Shown here piece after piece: positions 1 to 1,550 of a stretch of DNA of 38,797 nucleotides. The stretch is taken from NCBI GenBank assembly GCA_031264325.1, contig JAISEE010000034.1:1-38797 (forward strand), in the 5' to 3' direction. The notes beneath the pieces were generated by a model. It saw only the letters and a program-made list of their open reading frames with translations, was not told where the DNA came from and did no database searches. The stretch is from Endomicrobium sp. GTDB taxonomy: Bacteria > Elusimicrobiota > Endomicrobiia > Endomicrobiales > Endomicrobiaceae. A program made the translations under genes and the position numbers. Numbering within the stretch: the first letter of the stretch is position 1; the number at the start of each line of letters is the position of its first letter.

Positions 1-234
1 TTCTCTAAAGTGACACCTTCTCTAAAGTGACACCTTCTCTAAAGTGACACCTTCTCTAAAGTGACACCTTCTCTAAAGTGACACCTTCTCTAAAGTGACA
101 CCTTCTCTAAAGTGACACATTCTCTAAAGTGACACCTTCTCTAAAGTCACACCTTCTCTAAAGTGACAACTTCTCTAAAGTGACACCTACTCTAAAGTGA
201 CACCTTCTCTAAAGTGACACCTTCTCTAAAGTGA
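1..234. repeat. 17-bp tandem repeat array (13 full copies plus a partial)
   Basis: The unit TTCTCTAAAGTGACACC repeats head to tail from the first base: 13 complete 17-bp copies (1-221) and 13 bases of a fourteenth. The array may extend left of the window. Most copies are identical. Copies 7, 9, 10 and 12 carry single-base changes, for example GTGAC to GTCAC in copy 9 and TTC to TAC in copy 12. A 17-bp period is not a multiple of three and every frame meets stops, so it is not coding. There is no spacer structure, so it is not a CRISPR array. It lies about 300 bases beyond the 3' end of asd. The 235-449 stretch that follows is plain AT-rich DNA in which I see nothing. Confidence 0.97.
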
Positions 235-449
235 ATGATAATTGATAATTTTTAAAGTAAAATATAAACTTGATTTAAAATAGTTTATATTTATAAATAT
301 AAACTTTAAATATAATTATATTTAACTTTAATGTTAATAACTTTATAAAAAATTCATCGTACTTAACATAATATATATTATCGGACATAAATATTTTCAC
401 ACAAAAAAATAAATGTCAAATTTTTATTCTTAGTTTTTAAAACCAAAAA

Positions 450-525
450 GAAATAGATAGAAAAAAAGAAAGAAATAGATAGAAAAAAAGAAAGAAATAG
501 ATAGAAAAAAAGAAAGAAATAGATT
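450..525. repeat. 22-bp purine-rich tandem repeat (3.4 copies)
   Basis: The unit GAAATAGATAGAAAAAAAGAAA occurs three times exactly (450-471, 472-493, 494-515), plus ten bases of a fourth copy ending five bases before the asd stop codon. On the minus strand, which asd uses, it reads as repeated T-runs directly after the gene. It could therefore act as a series of U-rich tracts for transcript ending, but no hairpin is present. Confidence 0.95.
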
Positions 526-530
526 TATTT

Positions 531-1550
531 TTATATCAATCCATTTTTTATAAGAGTTTCTGCTATTTGTACCGCATTTAAAGCAGCACCTTTAAGCAAA
601 TTATCTGAAACAACCCAAAACGTCAAAGCATTATTTTTAGTTGAAATATCAGCTCGTATTCTTCCTACATATGTAGTCTGTATATTTTCAGCAAATAAAG
701 GCATAGGATATTTTTTACTTTCTTCAAGTTCGTCAATCAATTGAATGCCTTCGGCTTTTGATAACAACTCTCTGGCTTTTTGTGGCAAAATAGGTTTTTC
801 TGTTTCAATCCAAACATTTTCGGAATGAGAACGGAATACAGGTACTCTTACACACGTTGCACTGACTCCTATTGAATTATCTCCCATAATTTTTTTAGTT
901 TCATTAGCCATTTTCATTTCTTCTTTTGTATAACCATTATCTGTAAAAACATCTATTTGTGGTATTAAGTTAAATGCGATTTGGTATTGAAATTTATTAT
1001 TAGTTATAGGCTTTTTTTTAGCCCAAGCTTTTATTTGTTCTGTAAGTTCATTAATTCCCTTTTGCCCAGCTCCTGAAACAGATTGATATGTTGAAACTAT
1101 AACTCTCTTAATTTTTGCAAAGTCATGAATAGGTTTCAATGCTACAACCATCTGGATGGTTGAACAGTTAGGATTTGCTATAAGTTTTTTATCTTTTTTT
1201 AAGTCATGAGGATTTACTTCAGGAACTACCAATGGGATATCTTTTTTCATGCGCCAAGCGCTAGAGTTGTCTATTACAAAACAACCGTCAGCTGTAAAAT
1301 AGGGAGCAAACTCTTTAGAAACCGATGCTCCTGCACTAAAAAGAGATATGTCTATACCCTTTCCATTTTTTTTAGTGAGCAAGTCAACTGTTATTTTTTT
1401 ACCATTATATGTTAATTTTTTGCCCATAGAGCGTTCAGAAGCTAAAAATTTTATACTTTCAATAGGAAAATTTCTACTTTCAAGCATTTTTATCATTTCA
1501 AGCCCAACTGCGCCTGTCGCACCGACAACTGCTACTTTAAATTTTTTCAT
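531..1550 (-). CDS. asd: Aspartate-semialdehyde dehydrogenase
   Basis: This enzyme reduces aspartyl-4-phosphate to aspartate semialdehyde with NADPH, the branch point to lysine/diaminopimelate, threonine and methionine. The 339 residues are the usual length. The N-terminal nucleotide-binding loop GATGAVG is at residues 10-16 and the catalytic cysteine is in NPNCST (Cys129). The start is supported by a GAGG Shine-Dalgarno site 6-7 bases upstream. It is last in the run leuA-leuC-leuD-leuB-asd, 59 bases after leuB, and is probably cotranscribed with it. It also supplies the diaminopimelate route needed for peptidoglycan. Confidence 0.96.
   Translation of the reverse strand: MKKFKVAVVGATGAVGLEMIKMLESRNFPIESIKFLASERSMGKKLTYNGKKITVDLLTKKNGKGIDISLFSAGASVSKEFAPYFTADGCFVIDNSSAWRMKKDIPLVVPEVNPHDLKKDKKLIANPNCSTIQMVVALKPIHDFAKIKRVIVSTYQSVSGAGQKGINELTEQIKAWAKKKPITNNKFQYQIAFNLIPQIDVFTDNGYTKEEMKMANETKKIMGDNSIGVSATCVRVPVFRSHSENVWIETEKPILPQKARELLSKAEGIQLIDELEESKKYPMPLFAENIQTTYVGRIRADISTKNNALTFWVVSDNLLKGAALNAVQIAETLIKNGLI

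Follow-up and report, generated by a model that had tools for sequence, protein, structure and literature searches.

What is an array of near-identical 17-bp units doing at the very start of a contig of a termite-gut symbiont, and does it really end where the contig ends? The genome under study (Endomicrobium/Endomicrobiellum) comprises 802 kb in 34 contigs and is 75% complete. The window that was analysed is the entire contig C10 (38,797 bp), and the start of the window is thus the start of the contig. Comparisons with other genomes were drawn from contig ends and selected stretches.

The array and the edge of the contig

Tandem Repeats Finder (TRF) detected a period of 17 with 13.8 copies, 96% matches and no indels, corresponding to 13 full units and a partial unit of 13 bp (Table 1). 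In the best stretch the period-17 self-match amounted to 209 of 217 positions, whereas 30 Markov-shuffled versions of the window reached 84-93, which confirms the 13 full copies with few changes described in the initial annotation. The units are arranged head to tail and fall within the size range of minisatellites (roughly 10-60 bp). A CRISPR array was dismissed, as the units are contiguous and lack unique spacers. Likewise, stops are present in all six frames, which rules out a coding role and upholds the earlier view of the unit as non-coding. Only four substitutions are found across the 13 full units, one each in units 7, 9, 10 and 12, and the first six units from the contig start are identical. 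These pure inner units would be compatible with the recent expansion that had been proposed before. A variable-number repeat, as suggested in the initial annotation, is a plausible reading of the array.

Table 1. Features at the start of contig C10 (positions in the window; a dot marks a feature without strand)
Feature	Position	Strand	Basis and remarks
17-bp tandem array, type A unit TTCTCTAAAGTGACACC	1..234	+	TRF, unit table, shuffles; truncated at contig start
Last, partial unit TTCTCTAAAGTGA	222..234	+	GTGA (231-234) is part of the edge motif of the element
Outer edge motif GTGA(A/G)TGATA	231..240	+	Alignments within the genus and with other genera
Accessory box 1, TTAAAGTAAAATATAA	252..267	+	Conserved; inverted relative to box 2 (94% match)
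Perfect AT palindrome AGTTTATATTTATAAATATAAACT, centre of the element	282..305	.	Conserved core TATTTATAA
Accessory box 2, inverted (TTATATTTAACTTTAA)	316..331	-	Alignments and inverted match to box 1
Predicted dif site	361..388	+	XerD-type arm ACTTAACATAA 361-371; centre TATATA 372-377; XerC-type arm TTATCGGACAT 378-388
Purine-rich tandem array, 3.5 x 22 bp, perfect, unrelated to the 17-bp array	447..524	+	TRF; between dif and the asd stop codon
asd, aspartate-semialdehyde dehydrogenase	531..1550	-	Pfam; adjoins dif in many relatives

Does the array end at position 1? In this genome exactly 119 bp are common to 15 pairs of contig ends (99 shared 21-mers each), and exact contig-end overlaps of this length are the mark of a graph assembly with k=119. 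The pure repeat in C10 covers positions 1-118, that is k-1 for k=119, and the first deviating base is 119. Together with the 119-bp overlaps, this means that C10 begins where a 119-mer first departs from the repeat cycle, and the array therefore extends past the contig. Hence, the array is collapsed and incomplete in the assembly, the real array is longer, and the assembly edge named among the earlier possibilities was rightly suspected. A study of Endomicrobia metagenome-assembled genomes (MAGs), to whose data set we take this genome to belong, used MEGAHIT with k up to 119 and dropped contigs below 1 kb (PMC11257099); given this minimum, a contig consisting solely of the repeat would be lost. 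At the other end of C10 (38679-38797), 119 bp are common with the start of contig C9 in the same orientation, representing a fork in the assembly graph.

Counting units genome-wide, as had been proposed, revealed only one further array, a variant located at the start of contig C25. It contains 6.5 copies of a type B unit, TTTTCTAAAGTAACACC (minus strand), which differs from type A by two substitutions. The pure run in C25 measures 111 bp and not 118 bp, so that the break of this contig is not fully explained by k. The C25 array is adjoined by cstA, followed by an MFS transporter, and inspection of ORFs pointed to genes resembling glucuronate isomerase, fructuronate reductase and KDG kinase on the same contig. 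The array is closed by a C-rich run, TACCCCCCCCACCCC (L038 112-127), though the genome is AT-rich. A perfect hairpin, TGACACCTTTAAGGTGTCA (L038 201-219), follows cstA; this TGACACC/GGTGTCA hairpin was considered as a source of the unit and discarded, as it is single in the genome and looks like the cstA terminator.

In relatives, genes of the two contigs are found on opposite sides of dif. In genome G057, dif is directly flanked by genes of C10 on one side and by genes of C25 on the other, oriented such that the array ends would face each other. Moreover, in 16 of 26 other genomes orthologues of C25 genes (saccharopine-dehydrogenase-like and PLP-decarboxylase-like) lie no more than 1.5 kb from dif, and in 11 of the 26, including G057, they share one dif locus with asd. 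In G008, cstA and asd are 43 kb apart, with dif between them, and cstA points at the asd/dif side. Based on this face-to-face gene order, and on gene strand and GC skew, which in both C10 and C25 run toward the array ends, we take the arrays as one: very probably they represent the two ends of a single compound array at the terminus. We further take some 10 kb of other genes to lie between the compound array and the ancestral neighbour in C25. In the assembly, cstA and a hexuronate-type cluster (L038 1-8000, C25) separate the array from those genes that are neighbours of dif in relatives, which looks like an insertion at the terminus. The hexuronate pathway has been discussed as horizontally acquired (PMC11257099).

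A predicted dif site with a conserved accessory element

Comparison of the region 3' of asd across relatives disclosed that the array is adjoined by a non-coding element that is conserved, the terminal part of which, ACTTAACATAATATATATTATCGGACAT, has the 11-6-11 form of dif. In the alignments this site comprises 28 bp, with a 6-bp centre between two 11-bp arms that are partly inverted copies of each other; the arms presumably correspond to the XerD and XerC arms, as named by analogy to E. coli dif. At a dif site, chromosome dimers are resolved by XerC and XerD, helped by FtsK. Two proteins of this genome match the XerD model, one on C9 over the cut-off and one on C12 below it, the second presumably being XerC, and FtsK is encoded on C27, with a gamma domain that is weakly recognised, below cut-off. 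With up to three mismatches allowed, the dif pattern occurs exactly once in each of 27 of the 42 genomes of the genus and is not found in the other 15. In G057 (99% complete) a change of GC skew from +0.09 to -0.18 coincides at dif with a switch of the main coding strand, and in the single-contig genome G066 the skew turns from +0.05 to -0.11. The site in C10 is thus a predicted dif of the XerCD-FtsK type at the skew switch, with which the skew and gene strand of C10 and C25 agree. The array ends 127 bp before dif, where it abuts the element, and the association with the replication terminus that was to be checked according to the initial annotation is borne out.

As regards a plasmid iteron origin, in which a Rep gene would lie beside the repeats, C10 is flanked by asd and leuB and C25 by cstA and the transporter, and genes of both contigs adjoin dif on the chromosomes of relatives (part of the ORFs were screened for plasmid Rep domains). 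The leuB gene (1610-2671) is 92% identical to leuB of an Endomicrobium MAG, and its best approximately 20 matches derive from Endomicrobium, Endomicrobiellum, Endomicrobiia or other Elusimicrobiota. The orientation of the dif element relative to asd is flipped in this genome as well as in G009 and G019, against most relatives.

How far does the conservation reach? In most congeners the conservation covers about 130 bp to the left of dif and does not extend to its other side: the mean pairwise local score was 48 upstream versus 17 in shuffles, and 12 versus 10 downstream. The element harbours an outer edge motif and two boxes, inverted relative to each other, one on each side of an AT palindrome (Table 1). 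The last unit of the array, which extends to 234, overlaps the edge motif, which begins at 231, and supplies its GTGA. Among the hexamers of the element, TAAAGT ranks first within the genus (41 seen versus 8 expected, in 25 of 27 genomes) and among the top two outside it (18 versus 4.4, in 16 of 20). A profile of element plus dif matched in 65 of 96 genomes of the class, representing 19 of 29 genera, with the reservation that dif alone adds to the score, so that the weakest matches do not prove the accessory part. Within the family, and in some genomes beyond it, there is mostly one full-length place per genome. Of 20 places read outside the genus, those in the family and in G027 retain most parts in recognisable form, and those in G028, G029, G032 and G058 mainly box 1 and dif. 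The element hence appears to be conserved together with dif in other genera and partly in other families. In the literature searched there was no description of such an arrangement in Endomicrobiia, with conserved inverted accessory boxes beside dif, and this element, rather than the array, is the more novel part of the locus.

The array behaves differently. No such array was present in 40 other genomes searched, 24 of them of the same genus, and it was unmatched at all 26 other dif loci, including that of the closest relative (G023/L039), which carries the same element without a repeat outside. Unit dimers found no match in the genome contigs or viral contigs searched, and nothing was found in a literature search on tandem repeats or the terminus in Endomicrobium.

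Origin of the array

Taken together, we favour, with a probability of roughly 0.6, a lineage-specific minisatellite at the replication terminus, located next to the dif accessory element and made by slippage or recombination. This reading builds on what was observed: the array, dif and its accessory element, the skew flip in relatives, the collapsed contig edge and the absence of the array from relatives. In this lineage, a few bases from the outer margin of the accessory element would have been duplicated, and the resulting array may then have grown by slippage or unequal recombination, favoured at a place where replication forks fuse and XerCD and FtsK act. Type A units would now lie next to dif and type B units next to cstA, with an assembler unable to cross between them. 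As the gene blocks on either side converge on the non-coding gap that holds the array, expansion would cost little and growth would be tolerated; an essential role would then be absent. A tandem-repeat reporter in E. coli showed that recombination increases locally where forks fuse (PMC12809603). The same dif is present without arrays in other genomes, and fork fusion alone is thus insufficient. We count the unrelated 22-bp array across dif from the 17-bp array in favour of the minisatellite. What speaks against it is the TAAAGT box, which is kept in all 14 units, as a purely neutral repeat need not do.

This box is an argument for a functional protein-binding array, the second possibility raised in the initial annotation, in which the unit would be a multiplied accessory box (TAAAGTRA) and one putative protein would bind both array and element and either organise the terminus or control XerCD at dif. 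In every unit TAAAGT has the orientation of box 1, and the chance for a random 17-mer from the window to contain it is 2.5% (0.35% for TAAAGTRA). Furthermore, the last unit and the edge (227-243) form an 82% inverted match to box 2. These observations are suggestive of a shared binding site in units and element, although the comparison of motifs between them was partly post hoc. Type A reads TAAAGTGA and not the consensus TAAAGTAA, the element is kept in relatives without any array, and there is no candidate protein. We therefore consider a binding array possible but doubtful. The same tentative standing applies to its wider version, in which the chromosomal dif of Endomicrobiia would be a compound site with an accessory element bound by a putative protein at TAAAGT boxes, one box having been multiplied in this lineage into a long binding platform that spans the terminus.

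A fork barrier or terminus organiser of a known type, such as Tus-Ter or MatP-matS, would suit the position of the array at the terminus, and most units match matS (GTGACRNYGTCAC) with two mismatches. However, the units lack the palindromic second half of the site, copies of one unit amount to one independent match, and type B fits worse by eye, which speaks against MatP-matS. The Tus-Ter fork trap is largely refuted, as Tus was absent from all 42 genus genomes searched while the control was found in E. coli. Such systems are therefore highly improbable here. Very unlikely, too, is an origin from a mobile element, as its remnant or one of its arms, with the host XerCD mediating integration at dif. 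In G023/L039, phage-type genes do lie directly on the XerC side of a dif whose XerC arm is altered, the picture that a prophage inserted by the host XerCD would give; genes for RecT-like, exonuclease, SSB-like and Holliday junction resolvase proteins (L039 3710-7300) begin near this side. The array, however, is located across dif from that position, on the accessory side, those flanking genes of C10 and C25 that were examined have metabolic functions, and the lack of viral matches to unit dimers argues against this origin as well. That the repeat is a chimera produced by the assembler is extremely improbable, even though the array is collapsed and located where a contig begins. There is no break between seven inner units, which bear four private substitutions, and the conserved element, and this element can be aligned to relatives right up to the junction. 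In addition, a related array is present in C25 at the end that is expected to be the neighbour.

The array explains the assembly break at the terminus and links two contigs. Moreover, the element is conserved beside the chromosomal dif in many genera of Endomicrobiia, where usually only the 28-bp core is considered. Two questions thereby become testable: does resolution by FtsK-XerCD depend on additional factors in this class, and do repeats at the terminus arise as by-products when forks fuse or serve as binding platforms?

Comparison with known systems

Unusual repeated DNA at the replication terminus is likewise present in Lactobacillus delbrueckii, where, in contrast to the 17-bp direct repeat described here, the repeats are inverted and measure tens of kilobases (PMC5345009). 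With bacterial minisatellites and variable-number tandem repeats (VNTRs) the array shares short head-to-tail units, few substitutions, the non-coding location and the greater purity away from the flank. It differs from them by its location at dif and the terminus, where it touches a conserved element.

A dif site was predicted in one Elusimicrobia genome by Kono et al. 2011 (PMC3025954). The site described here corresponds to a chromosomal XerCD-FtsK site in its 28-bp 11-6-11 form, its single occurrence per genome, the switch in skew and the presence of XerC/XerD-type and FtsK genes; unlike the usual chromosomal dif, it carries a conserved element of about 130 bp on the XerD-type side. A paper on Vibrio cholerae describes chromosomal dif as a 28-bp, FtsK-controlled site, whereas plasmid Xer sites need approximately 200 bp of flanking accessory sequence (PMC2533119). 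The layout found here, in which a long conserved stretch resembling protein-binding boxes adjoins the core on a single side, is reminiscent of plasmid sites of the cer/psi type. As in a cer-type compound site, the accessory sequence is fixed beside the core, both in the genus and in other genera; cer-type sites are bound by accessory proteins such as ArgR and PepA. Nevertheless, the site is chromosomal and the likeness seen is one of layout; while the accessory DNA of cer is located on the XerC side, that of the Endomicrobium site lies on the XerD-type side.
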